A DNA stretch of 64,000 nt from [Pseudomonas] carboxydohydrogena (GTDB taxonomy: Bacteria > Pseudomonadota > Alphaproteobacteria > Rhizobiales > Xanthobacteraceae): NCBI RefSeq assembly GCF_029030725.1, contig NZ_CP113162.1, forward strand, positions 1,300,501 to 1,364,500, written 5' to 3'. The translations under genes were made by a program, and so were the position numbers. Positions 24,484-55,102 of this stretch are shown piece by piece; position 1 is the first letter of the stretch, and each line of letters starts with the position of its first letter. The notes under the pieces were generated by a model that worked only from the letters and a program-made list of their open reading frames with translations, made no database searches and was not told the origin of the DNA.

Positions 24484-24661
24484 GTTCGGTCCCCACCGAA
24501 ATCTTGCGGGCGGAGAACGATCGGGCTTCCAGACTCATGATGCGAAAGCGAGGGCCTTGCATCGGGACTGGAGAAGGCCGCAGGCGTTTCTCCGCAACGG
24601 TTGTTGTCGTGTCACCGCTGCGGAAGCCGCTCCTCGCGCACCCCGCGCAATGGATGGATGA

Positions 24662-24882
24662 CCGGGACAGGCAGGTCTCCTGGCTCACGGATCAATGCTG
24701 CTGTCCGCCTTCCCAAGCCGGCATGTGCCGTGTGCTCAGTGGCATGATGGACAGCGGCTCACCGCTGACAGTTGCGGGGGCAGCTTCGGAATTGCCGCGC
24801 AGGACGAGGTGTGCGAAACATCACCGCAGCGCGACGGCACCGAATTCCCTATTACGCCAGCTTGCGCCGGCACCTGTACCGT
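24662..24882 (-). promoter_or_regulatory. Cobalamin riboswitch upstream of btuB
   Basis: Read on the minus strand, this 220-base leader has the known cobalamin-aptamer elements in order: a 5' ACAGG stem side, GGGAA...CGGTG, the B12-box CTGCCCCCGCAACTGT, CCACTG, GGGAAGGC, and the 3' end GAGCCAGGAGACCTGCC whose CCTGT pairs with the first stem. About 180 bases separate it from the btuB start. Adenosylcobalamin is expected to shut off btuB expression. No T-rich terminator is obvious, which favours control of translation start, but this was not folded. Confidence 0.92.
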
Positions 24883-24996
24883 GCCCGCAATCAAGCGGGG
24901 CGCCGGTGTCGTGTCAACGCCACATTGTCCGAGAATCCCCACGCGATGGACTTCCCCGATCTGCGTTGCAAATGGGAGACAGCGGCAGGCCGCGTC

Positions 24997-48186: not shown

Positions 48187-48210
48187 CGGCTCGCCCCGCT
48201 CACCTCTTGA

Positions 48211-48236
48211 AAAGGCCGCCTTCGGGCGGCCTTTTT
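48211..48236 (+). terminator. Terminator of the rpoBC operon
   Basis: GGCCGCC/GGCGGCC with loop TTCG, extended by A-T pairs, runs into TTTTT. It starts 25 bases after the rpoC stop. Confidence 0.9.
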
Positions 48237-48481: not shown

Positions 48482-50536
48482 ATGATCAATCTTGCGATTA
48501 TCGGGGGTGGCCCGGGCGGCCTGATGTCGGCCTGGTACCTGAAGAAGAAGCTCGGCCCGTTGTGCCGGGTTTCGATCTTCGAGGCCTCGAACCGTCTTGG
48601 CGGCAAAATCCAGACCGGAAAATTCGATTCATCGGCCGCGATCTACGAGGCGGGCGTCGCCGAAATCTATGACTATTCGATGACGGGTCCCGATCCGCTG
48701 CGCGAGCTGATCCAGCATTTCGGATTGCAGACCGTGCCGATGGATGCCGAGCAGATTCAGCTCGATGGCGAATTGCTCGACGACATTCCGGGCATGCGCC
48801 GCAAATACGGTCCCGAGACCGCGAACGCGATCGCCAATTTCCGCAAGCGCTGTACCGGTCTGGTTTCGCCGATCGAATATTACGAAGGCGTCGGCGCGCA
48901 CGACAACGAACATCCCTGGGCGCTCAAGAGCGCGGAAGATGTGCTCGACGAGGAGGTGGCCGACCCCATCGCCAAGCGCTTCATCAAGGTGATGGCGCGC
49001 TCCGATATCGCGACCGAGAGCCACAACACCAACGGCCTCAACGCCCTGAAGAACTACGTGATGGATATCGAGGGCTATATCGGCCTGTACTCGATCCAGA
49101 ACGGCAACGAGCAGTTGATCCACAGCCTGCGCAGCGAGATCGACGCCGAAATCAACCTCAACCATCGCGTGCTCAAGGTCGGCAAGGCCGATTCCGGCAA
49201 GTACGCCGTCGAGATGATGAACGGCAAGGCGGCGGTGACGAAGGAATTCGACCTCGTGCTGATGTGCCTGCCGCATTCCTGGCTGGCGACGATGCGCTGG
49301 GAAGGGGAGTTGCTGCGCCATTCGATGGTGCGGCATATCGCCTATTTCGACCGTCCGGCGCATTACCTGCGGGTGTCGATTCTGTTCGATGAACCGTTCT
49401 GGGGCGACAAGGTGCCGGGTGCGTGGTGGATGTCGGAGGCCTTCGGCGGCTGCTGCATCTACGTGGAGGGCGCGCGCCACGATGTCGGCCGCAACGGCGT
49501 GCTGAACTGGCTGATCGCGGGCTCGGATGCGCTGGCTTACGCCAACCTCTCGGACGAGGAACTGATCGATGCCGCGCTCAAGTCGTTGCCGGCTTCTTTC
49601 GGCAAGGTTCGCCCGCATTTCATCGAGGGCAAGATTCACCGCTGGCTGTCGTCGGTGAACTGCATTCCCGGCGGCTTGCCGGTGCGCGACGTGATGACCA
49701 ACCATCGGCCCGAGCCTTACGAGCATCCGGGCTTTGTCGTGGTCGGCGACTATCTGTTCGACTCGACCCTCAACGGCCTGCTCGATTCTTCCGACGCCGC
49801 GACCGACATCATCACCACCGAGATGATGAAGCTGCGCTATGAGCGCGGCGAAACCGGCAACGTGCCGTCCGACAAGATCGACCGCGCCTATTTCGAGAAC
49901 TATCGCAATGCCGGGCCTTATTCGGAAGTCTGGCAGAAATTCACCGATCCCGATTACCTGATGGAGATGATCCGGATCGTGTGGCGGCCCAAGAAAGGCT
50001 ACCGGCTGCTCATCGCGGGCTCTGCGAGCGGCGAACTGGTCGGTGCGCTGCGCGAGCGTGGCGTTGACGCCTGGGGCATCGAGAACAACCGTTCCATCCA
50101 CGCCAGGACGCCGAAGGCGCTGCGGAAATACAACAAGCTCGGCACCGTGACCAAACTGCCGTTCAAGGCCGACTCGTTCGACTTCGTGTTCGAGACCAGC
50201 CTGTGTCATCTCTCCGACAAACAGGTCGTGAAGGGCATTCGCGAAATCAACCGCGTGGTGAAGACCGGATTCGTGTTCGGTTCGGTGACGAGCGACATGG
50301 CGCCCGCGCTGATCGATCGCTATGACCTGCTGCGCGGCGTCAAGAAGCTCGGCACCTGGTGGGAATGGTCGGAATTGTTCTTCGGCAACGGTTTTGATCT
50401 GTCCGCGCATCGGGACGACCGGACCGATCAGGTCTGGGAGGCCACCCTCAAGGCGGGCAAGGGGCCGGGCGACTGGTACGCGGACTCCGACAGCCTGCGT
50501 TATTCTTTCTTCGACAAGATTGCGGACGACGACTGA
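48482..50536 (+). CDS. FAD amine-oxidase-like / SAM methyltransferase fusion protein
   Basis: A 684-residue two-part protein I cannot assign to a named family. The first part (about 1-455) is an FAD-dependent oxidoreductase of the amine oxidase/phytoene desaturase type: GGGPGG at 8-13, Glu34 for the FAD ribose in FEASNRLGGK, and HPGFVVVGDYLFDSTLNGLLDSS at about 414-436 as the closing FAD motif. The second part (about 500-640) is a class I methyltransferase: LLIAGSASGEL, acidic Glu in AWGIENN, LPFKADSFDFVFETSLCHLS and INRVVKTGFVFG. The two activities might act one after the other on one substrate. No signal peptide or TM helix. It starts a four-gene group with an ABC exporter, an FkbM methyltransferase and an ATP-grasp protein. 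Confidence 0.85.
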   Translation: MINLAIIGGGPGGLMSAWYLKKKLGPLCRVSIFEASNRLGGKIQTGKFDSSAAIYEAGVAEIYDYSMTGPDPLRELIQHFGLQTVPMDAEQIQLDGELLDDIPGMRRKYGPETANAIANFRKRCTGLVSPIEYYEGVGAHDNEHPWALKSAEDVLDEEVADPIAKRFIKVMARSDIATESHNTNGLNALKNYVMDIEGYIGLYSIQNGNEQLIHSLRSEIDAEINLNHRVLKVGKADSGKYAVEMMNGKAAVTKEFDLVLMCLPHSWLATMRWEGELLRHSMVRHIAYFDRPAHYLRVSILFDEPFWGDKVPGAWWMSEAFGGCCIYVEGARHDVGRNGVLNWLIAGSDALAYANLSDEELIDAALKSLPASFGKVRPHFIEGKIHRWLSSVNCIPGGLPVRDVMTNHRPEPYEHPGFVVVGDYLFDSTLNGLLDSSDAATDIITTEMMKLRYERGETGNVPSDKIDRAYFENYRNAGPYSEVWQKFTDPDYLMEMIRIVWRPKKGYRLLIAGSASGELVGALRERGVDAWGIENNRSIHARTPKALRKYNKLGTVTKLPFKADSFDFVFETSLCHLSDKQVVKGIREINRVVKTGFVFGSVTSDMAPALIDRYDLLRGVKKLGTWWEWSELFFGNGFDLSAHRDDRTDQVWEATLKAGKGPGDWYADSDSLRYSFFDKIADDD

Positions 50537-50640: not shown

Positions 50641-52599
50641 ATGTCGCCACCGCCGGATAGCACCGCCCCGGAGTCCGTTGCCGACAAGCGCGCCGCCGAG
50701 GAGGTCGCGCGTCCAGAGCCTGTTCCGGAGCCGGTCGCGGTCGATATTGACGACGACGATGACGAGGATCTCGTCGCCTTTACCGCGAGCGAAGCCGCGG
50801 GCGCGTTCGCGACGATCTGGCGCTTCACATGGCCGTTGATGCGCAACTACAGGCGCTGGCTTGTATTCGTCGGCATCGGGCTGTTCGTGGAGACGTTGTT
50901 CAACGTCATCATGCCGCTCAGCCTGAAATACCTGATCGACGATGCGCTGGGGGAGGAGGACTTCCACGCGCTCTACGTGATCCTCATTGTACTGGCGGCC
51001 GCAGGCATTCTCACCTCGATCGTGGCAGTCTGGTACGAACTCTGGGACGCGCGCCTGTCCGCGGCGGTGATCTCCGACGTCCGCACCCGGCTGTTCAATC
51101 ATCTGCAAAGCCTTCCGGCGTCGTTCTTCGGCCGCACCAAGCGCGGCGAAATCCTGTCGCGCTTCTCGGTGGACATGGCGGGTTACGAAAGCTCGATCAA
51201 ATCGCTCGCCAACAGCGCGCTGCTGCCGCTGTTCGAACTGATCGCCGGCATCGGCCTGATGATCTGGCTGAACTGGCAACTTGCGGTGGTGGCGCTGCTG
51301 ATTTTCCCGGTGACGCTGGTTGGTCCGCGAATCCTGACGCCGAAGGCGGTGCAGGCCAATTACGAGCAGAAGGTCAATGAATCCGCGATCCTCGGCGTGG
51401 TGCAGGAGAACATCGGCACCCAGCTCGTGGTGAAGGCGTTCGGCCTGCAACGCAAGGCGTTCGGCTGGTTCACGTTCCGCAACCTCAATGCGCGGCGCTC
51501 GATCGCGGAGGCGACCTTCCTGTCCTCGATGGTGGAGCGCACCGTCACCGTCTCCGTGCTGCTGCTGCATCTCGTCGTGCTCGGCATCGGCGCGTATCTC
51601 GCCACCAAGGGCCAGATCACGGTCGGCACTTTCGTCACCTTCGAGAGCGCGTTCTGGGAAATTTCCTACAACATCGCGCATCTGATGCATTTCATTCCGC
51701 TGGCGATCTCCTCGGCCGCCTCCGTGCAGCATATGCAGGAACTGCTCGACGAGCCGGTGCGGGGCGCGGACCGGCCGGGCGCACCGGTCATGCCGCCGGT
51801 GATGAACGATATCGCCTTCGAGCGCGTCAGTTTCAGCTATGAGGGCACCGACACCAAGGTGCTCGACGCCCTGACGTTGAAGCTCGAGGCCGGCAAGAAT
51901 ATCGCCATCGTCGGCCCCAGCGGCTCGGGCAAGAGCACGCTGCTCAACCTGATCCTGCGGCTTTACGAGCCGACCGAGGGGCGTGTCACGATCGATGGCG
52001 TCGATATTCGCAGGGTGACGCGGGATTCGCTGCGCTCGCACATGGCCGTCGTCTTTCAGGAGAACATGCTGTTCAATATGTCGATCCGCGAGAACATCCG
52101 GCTCGGCAAGCAGGATGCGACCGACGCCGAGGTGGAGGCCGCGGCGAAGACGGCGGAAATCCATCGTCACATCGTCTCGCTGCCGGACGGTTATGACACG
52201 CTGGTCGGCGAGCGCGGCGACACCCTGTCCGGCGGCCAGCGCCAGCGCATCGCGATCGCACGCGCGATGGTGAGAAACCCCTCGGTGCTGTTGCTGGACG
52301 AGGCGACCTCGGCGCTCGATCAGACCACGGAAGCCGCGATCAACCGCACGCTGCTCAAGGCGGCAGAAGGTCGCACCATGATCTGGTCGACCCATCGCCT
52401 GACCTCGGTGGTTGAAATGGATGAGATCATTGTGGTGAGCGGCGGCCGGGTGCTGGAACGCGGGTCACACCATGATTTGATTGAAAAGGACGGCCTCTAT
52501 CGTCAGCTTTGGGATGATCAGATGCACCAGCCGCACCATGATGCGGGTGACGAAGATGACGACGAAGATGACGAAGACGACGACGACGATGATGAATGA
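50641..52599 (+). CDS. ABC exporter, MsbA-like half transporter
   Basis: A 652-residue half transporter with six TM helices (about 65-345) fused to an ATPase domain (about 385-620), working as a homodimer. Walker A is GPSGSGKST, the signature is LSGGQRQRIAIARA, Walker B is VLLLDEATSALD and the switch His follows in STHR, so ATPase activity is expected. The layout is that of lipid, peptide or polysaccharide exporters. Both ends are odd: residues about 36-45 are a run of Asp/Glu (DIDDDDDEDL), and of the last 19 residues 17 are acidic. It is 104 bases downstream of the FAD-methyltransferase gene and probably exports the product of this cluster (inference). Confidence 0.92.
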   Translation: MSPPPDSTAPESVADKRAAEEVARPEPVPEPVAVDIDDDDDEDLVAFTASEAAGAFATIWRFTWPLMRNYRRWLVFVGIGLFVETLFNVIMPLSLKYLIDDALGEEDFHALYVILIVLAAAGILTSIVAVWYELWDARLSAAVISDVRTRLFNHLQSLPASFFGRTKRGEILSRFSVDMAGYESSIKSLANSALLPLFELIAGIGLMIWLNWQLAVVALLIFPVTLVGPRILTPKAVQANYEQKVNESAILGVVQENIGTQLVVKAFGLQRKAFGWFTFRNLNARRSIAEATFLSSMVERTVTVSVLLLHLVVLGIGAYLATKGQITVGTFVTFESAFWEISYNIAHLMHFIPLAISSAASVQHMQELLDEPVRGADRPGAPVMPPVMNDIAFERVSFSYEGTDTKVLDALTLKLEAGKNIAIVGPSGSGKSTLLNLILRLYEPTEGRVTIDGVDIRRVTRDSLRSHMAVVFQENMLFNMSIRENIRLGKQDATDAEVEAAAKTAEIHRHIVSLPDGYDTLVGERGDTLSGGQRQRIAIARAMVRNPSVLLLDEATSALDQTTEAAINRTLLKAAEGRTMIWSTHRLTSVVEMDEIIVVSGGRVLERGSHHDLIEKDGLYRQLWDDQMHQPHHDAGDEDDDEDDEDDDDDDE

Positions 52600-52940
52600 G
52601 GCCCGGCCTTGCGTTGCCGCCGAATTGTCGCGCGCGGGCTTTTTTGCCCCCCTTTTTGCCCCCTTTCATGATGGGCCGTGACGGAAGCATCGGCGTGGAT
52701 CGGGGTTATCGCGGTCGGGTGCCGAAAGATTAACCACTCACTAACGCAGCCCTTTCTATTTGACGAAACTTGAAATCATGTATCAAGGATTGTCTTGGAG
52801 AGTGGGGCGATGCATGAAGCGATTATCGGCTGCCTGGGCCGTATTCGCTTCATAGCGTCGGTGCCCCGAACAGGCAGGCCATGCCGGGTCCAGATTGGGA
52901 CCGGAAATAAAAGTATCGTGATTTGGAAATTTTTCCTGCC
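52600..52940. other. Gap between exporter and FkbM gene
   Basis: A C-rich, T-rich stretch with CTTTTTTGCCCCCCTTTTTGCCCCC (two parts, about 52639-52664) could weakly end transcription. TTGACG (52760-52765) followed after 15 bases by TATCAA is a weak promoter candidate for the FkbM gene. A 62-codon frame at 52795-52983 overlaps the FkbM start and is not supported. Confidence 0.35.
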
Positions 52941-53915
52941 ATGGATTCCATCGCTCTCGAGCGCAGCCCGAAACCGGCTTTGACGTTTGACCGTCAGACC
53001 GGCCGCATTGGCGGAGCGGGTGTGCGCGAACGCCTTACCATCGGCGCGATGCAGGCGGGGGCTGCGATCAGCTCCGCCTGGTATTTTCGCGGCTTTGCGG
53101 CGGGGTGCCAGGGGCTGCGCGTGCTGTCGGCCGAGCAGCCGATCGAGGTGCGCCTCAACGAGGATGCGATATTTTCCTTCCCGTTCTGCGATGGCTACTG
53201 GAGCCTGCTGCTGTTCTCCAGCTATCGCTACGAATTCGACATCGAGATGTTCTTCAAGGGCATCGCCGACGCCGACTACACCCTGATCGATGGCGGCGCG
53301 AATTTCGGCTACTGGTCGGTGCTGGCGTCGAGCCGTCCCTATGGCGCGCATCGCTCGATCGCGATTGAGCCGTCGTCGGCGAATTTCACATGGCTGTCAC
53401 GCAACGCGTCCCGCAATGGCGGGAGGTTCACGCCGGTGAAGGCGGCGATCGGCGCGACTGAAGGCGTCGCGCATCTGTCGGGCCGCAAGCATGAGGCACT
53501 GTCGATCGCAGGCGGTTCGGACGCAGGCGAGGAAGTCCCGGTTGTGACGCTCGATTCCCTGATGGAGCGGATGAAGCTCGATCCGAAGGGGCGTTACGTC
53601 GCCAAGCTCGATGTCGAGGGCGTCGAGATCGCGGCCATCGCGGGCGGCGAGAAACTTCTGTCCGGCGATTGCGTCATGATCTGCGAAGAGCATGGCAACG
53701 ACCGCAACCACACCATTTCGCGGCACATCCTCGATCACACGCCGTTCAAGCTGTTCTGCTACGATCCGGCCACGGGCCGCTTCGAACAACTGACGGATGT
53801 CTCACCGCTCGACCGGATCAAGCGGGCCGTCAATTACGGCTACAACGTGCTGGCGACGGCGAGCCCTTATTGGGAACAGCGAATCCGCGCGCTCGGTCCG
53901 TTTTCGAGGGAGCGA
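52941..53915 (+). CDS. FkbM family methyltransferase
   Basis: A SAM-dependent methyltransferase of about 325 residues from the ATG at 52941 (its TGA stop is at 53916-53918, so the full CDS runs three bases past the coordinate given). FkbM family landmarks are IDGGANFGYWSVLAS, AIEPSSANFTWL, and YVAKLDVEGVEIAAIAGGE, the KxDVEG motif. Such enzymes methylate hydroxyl groups on sugars, polyketides and other natural products. The ATP-grasp gene begins inside its last codon (ATGA overlap), so the two are translationally coupled. Confidence 0.9.
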
Positions 53916-55102
53916 TGAGCGCGTCCCTTCCTCCGGCCGGTGTTGTTCTTCTCGGTGGCGTTCACGGCGCATTGGCGGCGGCGCGCACGCTCGGCCGCAA
54001 GGGCATCCCCGTTGTTTATGTGAGCGACGATCACCCGTTGCCGCGCTTCTCCCGCTATGTGCGGGAGAGTTTCGCGTGGCCCGGCGCGCAGGCGCCCGGT
54101 GCCGCGCAATGGCTGCTCGATCTGGCAGCGACACGCGGCCTGAAAGACTGGCTGCTCATTCCCTGCGCGGACGGCGACGTGAAGCTGATCGCCGAGAACC
54201 GGGATGCGCTGCAAAAGGCGTTTCGCGTGGTGTCGCTGAAATGGGACGACCTGAAGCAGCTTGGCGACAAGAAGCTACTGGCCGGGCTTGCCGCGCGGGT
54301 CGGAATTCCGTTTCCCCGCAGCTACCGGGTGGAGAGTGAGGCGGATCTCGCAGCGCTCGAGCCCGCCTTTCCGGTCCTGCTCAAGCCCGCGCAACGCGAG
54401 GTGCGCAACAGCTTCACGCAGGACAAGGTCTGGCGCGCGAACACCCGCGAGGAACTGGACGCACTATATCGCGATGCGGCCGCACATTCCGGCGCGCCGG
54501 GCGTGGTGGTGCAGGATTACATTCCGGGTGAGGGGCACGAGCAGTATTCCTACGCGGGAGTCTGGTCGGACGGCGAGCCCGTCGCGGAGATGACGGTCCG
54601 CCGGAGACGGCAATATCCGTCGGACTTCGGCATCAGTTGTTTCATCGAGATCGTGGACGAGCCGCGGATTCGCGATGTCGCCGAGAAGCTGCTGCGCGCG
54701 GCCCGCTACGAGGGGCTGGTGGAGATCGACTTCAAGTTCGATCCCCGCGACGGCCAGTTCAAGCCGCTCGACGTCAACACGCGGGTCTGGGCCTGGCTCG
54801 GGCTCGGGGAGGCGGCGGGCACCGATTTCGTCACCATGCTTTACCGCATGGCCCATGGAGAACCGCCCCCGGCGTCGGCAAATTCCAGTGACCATCGCTG
54901 GATGCATGTTCTTCGCGACGCTCCGGCGGTTCTGTCGCTGGTCCGGTCGGGGCAATGGCGCGGGGGACTGCGGGCCTATCTGGCGAGTTTCCGCCAGCCG
55001 ATCGCATGGGCGACCATGGCATGGGACGATCCCGTTCCCTTCATGGTCGAAATCCCGATCACGGCGTTCCGCATCCTGCGGCGCCGGATGTCGCGAGGCT
55101 GA
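53915..55102 (+). CDS. ATP-grasp ligase-like protein
   Basis: A 395-residue protein from the ATG at 53915, which overlaps the FkbM stop; a longer upstream frame is spurious. An N-terminal Rossmann-like part (VVLLGGVHGALAAARTLGRKG, about 10-30, in two motifs) is followed by an ATP-grasp fold: FPVLLKPAQREV, GVVVQDYIPGEGHEQYSY, and the metal/phosphate motif LDVNTRVW near residue 290. This layout recalls D-aspartate ligases and other carboxylate-amine ligases that join an amino acid to an acceptor. The substrate is unknown. In the cluster it could build an amide or peptide bond. Confidence 0.85.
   Translation: MSASLPPAGVVLLGGVHGALAAARTLGRKGIPVVYVSDDHPLPRFSRYVRESFAWPGAQAPGAAQWLLDLAATRGLKDWLLIPCADGDVKLIAENRDALQKAFRVVSLKWDDLKQLGDKKLLAGLAARVGIPFPRSYRVESEADLAALEPAFPVLLKPAQREVRNSFTQDKVWRANTREELDALYRDAAAHSGAPGVVVQDYIPGEGHEQYSYAGVWSDGEPVAEMTVRRRRQYPSDFGISCFIEIVDEPRIRDVAEKLLRAARYEGLVEIDFKFDPRDGQFKPLDVNTRVWAWLGLGEAAGTDFVTMLYRMAHGEPPPASANSSDHRWMHVLRDAPAVLSLVRSGQWRGGLRAYLASFRQPIAWATMAWDDPVPFMVEIPITAFRILRRRMSRG

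Follow-up and report, generated by a model that had tools for sequence, protein, structure and literature searches.

A fused FAD oxidoreductase and SAM methyltransferase with a linked ABC exporter in [Pseudomonas] carboxydohydrogena and its relatives

The window analysed here, a 64,000-nucleotide stretch of the [Pseudomonas] carboxydohydrogena genome, harbours a gene (48482..50536, + strand) whose 684-aa product joins an N-terminal FAD oxidoreductase and a C-terminal SAM methyltransferase in a chain that is conserved over its full length. The protein matches only generic Pfam domains, with no curated family describing the whole, and is an uncharacterised variant inside two very broad, known enzyme superfamilies. 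The occurrence of two conserved domains in one chain suggests, at the level of sequence, two steps on one substrate. We tentatively propose, at a little under even confidence, a tailoring enzyme with two activities and an exporter of its own, by which a single hydrophobic or lipid-like substrate would be dehydrogenated, methylated and exported. The FAD domain would dehydrogenate or otherwise oxidise a small molecule of this kind, the C-terminal domain would move a methyl group from SAM onto the same molecule, and an ABC half-exporter, acting as a homodimer, would flip or export the product over the inner membrane.

Gene and domain architecture

The frame begins with ATG and has zero internal stops, and no frameshift lies at the joint between the domains in the window. 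An earlier note made on this DNA had proposed an FAD oxidoreductase/SAM methyltransferase fusion, which is borne out by two Pfam domains above cut-off within a single intact frame. Residues 1–450 (48482..49831, + strand) form an FAD domain of the monoamine-oxidase/GR2 fold, in which the Pfam Amino_oxidase model (PF01593) covers residues 12–426 (E 3.3e-29, 102.9 bits vs a gathering cut-off of 19.8). A less conserved linker with the lowest model confidence (residues 451–480; 49832..49921, + strand) leads into a class I SAM-methyltransferase domain (residues 481–684; 49922..50533, + strand), where Methyltransf_11 matches residues 512–596 (E 2.6e-8, 34.8 bits vs a cut-off of 21.2) and Methyltransf_25 matches the same domain (E 2.8e-7, 31.6 bits vs 27). 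AlphaFold modelled the whole protein with a pLDDT of 88.7 and a pTM of 0.87, the weakest part being residues 451–490 (pLDDT 52–72).

Compared with eight relatives by the Nei-Gojobori method, dN/dS was 0.046–0.195 for the FAD half, 0.067–0.235 for the methyltransferase half and 0–0.32 for the linker. Purifying selection acts on both halves in all eight comparisons, and the fusion is excluded as a chance product because its full-length conservation spans many genera. A phmmer search against PDB sequences returned partial matches only. Searches of open PMC full text found nothing on the fusion protein, the sole match mentioning just rpsL (bll5405).

The FAD domain and its active site

Conservation was assessed on an alignment of 115 rows, comprising 94 fused and 21 other or partial sequences after near-identical copies had been merged. 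The GxGxxG dinucleotide-binding motif (residues 8–13; 48503..48520, + strand) is present in 93/94 fused and 21/21 other rows; G8/G10/G13, E34 and R38-x-G40-G41 are identical in 93/94 fused rows, the exception being an N-truncated frame. The C-terminal Gly-Asp FAD motif (G422-D423; 49745..49750, + strand) occurs in all 94 fused rows. The complete FAD site described in the earlier note thus holds across the family, and we infer from it that the domain binds FAD.

Classical amine oxidases, such as MAO and polyamine/putrescine oxidase, have an active-site lysine beside flavin N5. In a profile alignment, the lysine in the IK-VHAVYETPFW segment of putrescine oxidase 2yg3, which we take to be this flavin-N5 lysine, falls in the column of Arg297 (49370..49372, + strand). 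The lysine is absent from the family, with arginine in its place in 94/94 fused and 21/21 other rows, and ordinary amine oxidation by the FAD domain is doubtful because of this replacement. Residues 1–450 share with the flavin monoamine-oxidase superfamily (PF01593) the fold, the dinucleotide motif, E34, RxGG and the C-terminal GD, but differ in the arginine at the conserved lysine position and in a signature of their own, C325-x-Y327-x-E329-x2-R332 (49454..49477, + strand). Together with Arg297, Cys325 and Tyr327 are invariant (115/115 rows), and Glu329 and Arg332 deviate in one row each (114/115).

These differences bear on the view that the FAD domain is a redox-neutral mutase or isomerase, in which Arg297 and the C-x-Y-x-E-x2-R residues would form a different active site and methylation would be a separate decoration. 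This is supported by the universal exchange of lysine for arginine and by the polar signature not being retained in the aligned putrescine oxidase. However, among the rows shown, neither sequence nor fold comparison singled out a mutase, although such lists exclude nothing, and we consider this view unlikely.

In structural comparisons (Foldseek, VIA), the domain resembles MAO, putrescine oxidase, PPO, LAAO, VioA and renalase, with VIA matches at Z about 29–33, rmsd about 3 and 13–20% identity. Assignment to the phytoene desaturase class by fold was rejected, the match to 5mog (Z 29.7 in the VIA list) being tied with many others. Judged from the predicted model, the fold does not select a substrate class, and fold lists exclude no family. 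Curated models are no more specific: NCBIfam equivalogs for protoporphyrinogen oxidase, HpnE and VioA score at most 41 bits vs cut-offs of 98–600, the protoporphyrinogen oxidase models themselves giving 41 bits vs 517–560. Every NCBIfam match of the FAD part to named desaturases or oxidases lies far under cut-off, in agreement with the low similarity to named desaturases noted earlier.

The glycine-oxidase-type FAD domain of MnmC belongs to DAO, a Pfam model that scores the fusion's FAD domain at 15.7 bits, far under its cut-off of 27.9, so the fusion falls outside the MnmC type; its best model is Amino_oxidase. This weighs on the idea of an MnmC-like enzyme that would act on RNA or another macromolecule by FAD-dependent demodification followed by methylation. 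According to one report (PMC3648344), MnmC is a known bifunctional enzyme that likewise combines FAD oxidoreductase and SAM methyltransferase domains in one chain and carries the same substrate through two successive reactions. However, its domain order is reversed with respect to the fusion, its FAD part is a glycine oxidase homologue forming the C-terminal half and its substrate is macromolecular. The fusion gene's linkage to genes for an exporter and for membrane proteins also argues against an MnmC-like role, which is very improbable.

The methyltransferase domain

The claim that the C-terminal half has a complete class I core stands in part: G513, G517, E534 and D567 are conserved, but the acidic residue of motif I is replaced by isoleucine. 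Motif I (residues 509–517, LLIAGSASG; 50006..50032, + strand) has Ile at the acidic position, residue 511, in the window and Ile or Val in 81/94 fused rows, the remainder having Asp (6/94) or His, Gln or Asn (7/94). The middle glycine of its GxGxG is alanine in 88/94 fused rows, and its first and last glycines, G513 and G517, are identical in all 94. Glu534 at the end of strand 2 (50081..50083, + strand; 94/94 fused rows) is the predicted SAM ribose ligand, a role that we assume from the class I methyltransferase pattern, and D567 is identical in 93/94 fused rows.

Modelled alone, this part reached a pLDDT of 85.2 and a pTM of 0.85 (AlphaFold), and both this model and its fold matches reveal a class I methyltransferase fold. 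Neither outcome named in the earlier note as refuting the fusion, a C-terminal part without a SAM pocket or two genes with a frameshift, was encountered. The fold matches include CgnL (Z 15.2, rmsd 3.5, 191 aligned), TylM1, TleD and SgMT; as far as such models can tell, the matches are small-molecule class I methyltransferases and do not pinpoint a substrate. The top NCBIfam match of the domain in 5/5 proteins is the DVU_1556 family methyltransferase (NF045667; E 5e-8 to 1e-15), but its 33–58 bits compare with a cut-off of 155 and the model's 213 positions cover no flavoenzyme part.

Altered or lost chemistry is possible because the lysine is replaced by Arg297 and the motif I acid is missing. 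The methyltransferase domain might be non-catalytic, serving in SAM sensing or as a structural element, with the FAD domain alone active, as in planctomycetes. The replacement of the acid in most fused rows and the existence of stand-alone FAD proteins in other lineages are consistent with this, but the retention of G513, G517, E534 and D567 in all or all but one of the rows, and a dN/dS nearly as low as that of the FAD half, speak against it, and we regard it as improbable. Under the proposed bifunctional enzyme, the domain would bind SAM and both domains would be catalytic.

The linked exporter and the rpoC–rpsL interval

The gene following the fusion, which like Arg297 escaped the earlier note, encodes an ABC half-exporter with membrane and ATPase domains (50641..52599, + strand; Pfam ABC_membrane, ABC_tran). 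Among 61 relatives searched, it was found at E <=1e-150 in 27, exactly those with a near-identical fusion; three same-genus genomes without either gene are 83–84% complete, and the exporter match of one genome (G033) includes one in-frame TGA. The pairing is fixed: amongst the 48 Nitrobacteraceae-type loci listed (L061-L106, L115, L116; genes called from open frames and BLAST, with no gene finder), the exporter is the next gene in 46, and in the other two (L075, L101) the contig ends first. At these loci, rpoC lies upstream and rpsL downstream wherever the flank reaches, as they do in one genome of another family (G401), and most Afipia, Bradyrhizobium and Rhodopseudomonas-type genomes examined carry the fusion gene in this rpoC–rpsL interval.

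The fusion and exporter occur as a pair again in Phreatobacter (4/4 loci listed), where the exporter is 42–45% identical. Neither rpoC nor rpsL is present in the flanks read at these four loci, which occupy a different chromosomal site, and a TRAP-permease-like gene, identified by eye, lies upstream. The Xanthobacter-type and Nostoc loci have no linked exporter.

Within the window, a likely intrinsic terminator follows rpoC (hairpin and T-run, 48210..48236, + strand; read from the sequence and then folded, and absent from the scan list). Transcription of the fusion gene is therefore probably separate from that of rpoC, and this hairpin and T-run led us to reject a single operon with rpoC. Folding also gave a hairpin between the fusion and exporter genes, which we count against joint tailoring and export.

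Other genes of the interval vary. Downstream of the exporter are genes for an FkbM-type methyltransferase (52923-53918) and an ATP-grasp protein (53669-55102), which were discarded as parts of the system and treated as accessory, homologues occurring solely in L065 among the listed loci; they appear to be a variable insertion in the rpoC–rpsL interval. In several relatives, a protein of ~380 aa is encoded between rpoC and the fusion (e.g. L062 8304-9449, L161 7920-9083). It has a weak LuxR-type helix-turn-helix match, is missing from the window and could regulate the fusion/exporter pair. Elsewhere in the window, a cobalamin riboswitch (24653-24892, − strand, 127 bits) is unconnected with the fusion.

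The exporter's NCBIfam list is headed by MsbA-type models, albeit under cut-off, which lends some weight to a membrane-lipid pathway like that of UfaM and UfaD. Here, the methyltransferase would add a methyl group to a membrane lipid at one of its unsaturated acyl chains, the FAD domain would then desaturate beside the branch and the exporter would be a lipid flippase. The UfaM methyltransferase is of the CMAS type; no CMAS match was found among the fused proteins, which instead match Methyltransf_11/25, while CMAS genes from relatives do give high scores. Of the amine-oxidase-type proteins tested, the nearest is the FAD protein encoded in a CMAS/DUF1365/DUF1295 cluster of a same-genus genome, but the likeness is limited to ~110 N-terminal residues (E 2e-6), relating the two only via the nucleotide-binding end. 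According to one study (PMC7380195), UfaD is an FAD-type desaturase related to phytoene desaturases and UfaM a SAM methylase, and in Rhodobacter and Rhodopseudomonas the two act sequentially, UfaM first, on the acyl chains of phospholipids. They share with the fusion the combination of an alphaproteobacterial SAM methyltransferase and an FAD desaturase-type enzyme, but are separate genes acting on a membrane lipid rather than one fused chain, and the fusion is not known to have a linked UfaO-like gene. UfaM/UfaD is the best working analogue, although membership fails, and this pathway itself is a doubtful account of the fusion.

Hopanoids, presumably made by many fusion carriers, were rejected as the general link, since the distributions of the fusion and of hopene cyclase disagree: the cyclase is over cut-off in 35/61 relatives, one complete genome (G055) has a fusion homologue without it and six genomes (G030, G035, G036, G040, G058, G060) have it without the fusion.

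Distribution and history of the fusion

Near-identical fusions (75–100% identity) are present in 27/61 relatives searched, of which one (G018) is in two pieces and another (G023) is interrupted by a contig end; beyond these, G055 has a 41% identical homologue, and the raw tally of 31/61 also takes in three genomes with short matches. In a sample drawn evenly from the order, 34/397 genomes had a match at E 1e-20 or below, and the 41% homologue as query found 11/398 genomes of the phylum, all in the window's own family; every search drew on a sample of capped size. A scan of genome contigs covered at least 97 relatives and kept 79 loci, a few of them merely short partial matches. Among the matches listed, fusion carriers are Afipia, Bradyrhizobium, Tardiphaga, Rhodopseudomonas, Xanthobacter, Phreatobacter, Rhodoblastus, a Rhodospirillales MAG and Nostoc; the FAD part alone occurs in planctomycetes, one Acidobacteria MAG and one Hormoscilla MAG, where its frame is broken in two. 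The methyltransferase domain was found in 14/199 genomes of the order, invariably in the fused arrangement, with 13 single long frames and one split (G071). Split frames are seen in three relatives, the Bradyrhizobium-like G071 (L046), a MAG (L106) and the same-genus G018 (L025), reflecting either decay or sequencing error.

In a maximum-likelihood tree built from 38 FAD-domain rows, a 100/99 branch separates 12 planctomycete proteins from every one of the 23 fused rows, together with two rows from viral contigs and the one from Acidobacteria. The label 'fused' needs three changes on this tree, where the minimum is two, and the long Acidobacteria branch is unsure; a single fusion event would be the simplest reading. 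The search for the domains as separate adjacent genes, suggested in the earlier note, was negative: a profile of this methyltransferase domain, which could miss more distant methyltransferases, gave no partner gene at E 1e-3 in the flanks (<1 kb to 10 kb) of stand-alone FAD loci (L117, L119-L133, L138, L140-L142). The FAD part persists without a fused methyltransferase in planctomycetes, which counts against bifunctional tailoring.

Stand-alone FAD-domain relatives (37–40% identity) are also present on three viral contigs (L140 4635-6395, L141 4803-6380, L142 4875-6875), which have a neighbour of 410–439 aa in common. The L142 copy carries an insertion of ~140 aa and directly follows a frame that resembles phage head/DNA-pilot proteins (phrog_220), an odd location for a flavoenzyme, within a phage structural region. 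The fusion protein itself was matched by none of 50,697 phage records, and on plasmids its sole match was to the methyltransferase, at 20% coverage, in seven Pseudomonas plasmids. A defence or phage role was set aside, PADLOC and PHROGs giving just weak partial matches.

Membrane partners in other lineages

At Xanthobacter-type loci, the next gene in 5/5 listed encodes a ~290-aa protein with a C-terminal hydrophobic stretch and no Pfam match; in three Xanthobacter-type loci it is followed by a small protein whose start resembles a signal peptide (by eye). The membrane protein is again next to the fusion in two further genomes (G086, G403); in G086 (L159 7893-11062), this protein and the small one are both duplicated in tandem downstream of the fusion gene. 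An RMD1/DUF155 identity, suspected by eye, was rejected, 0/18 members matching that Pfam family. Relatives of the ~290-aa protein follow the stand-alone FAD gene in 14/15 planctomycete loci, the contig ending at the other (L127), and an HGSNAT-type gene comes next in 11/13 of those with enough flank, two of these genes being called by Pfam and the rest by BLAST to those two. One planctomycete locus (L119 2036-9834) continues downstream of this pair into a same-strand sugar-catabolism run of SASA esterase, 3-keto-disaccharide hydrolase/GSDH, Gfo/Idh, TIM barrel, ROK and DeoC genes.

The recurrence of a membrane transporter or membrane-anchored partner in differing lineages and at differing sites is the best functional clue, and the product or substrate would therefore be located at, or cross, the membrane. 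It is in this light that the proposed tailoring and export, with its presumed hydrophobic substrate shared by both domains and its putative exporter cargo, is to be read.

Implications

A broader formulation, possible though with the balance leaning against it, is that these proteins belong to an Arg-type flavoenzyme family (R297...C-x-Y-x-E-x2-R), undescribed so far, that acts at the membrane with exchangeable partners: in planctomycetes, a one-helix membrane protein and an acetyltransferase-like one; in Xanthobacter-type genomes, that same one-helix protein; and in Bradyrhizobium relatives, the ABC exporter. With the methyltransferase domain present in proteobacteria and Nostoc, the outcome would be a novel metabolite or lipid that is methylated and exported. 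The exchange of arginine for lysine offers a chance to probe the role of that position in the monoamine-oxidase fold. Should a single molecule be handled by both domains in succession, soil and symbiotic bacteria would prove to make a new, methylated compound.
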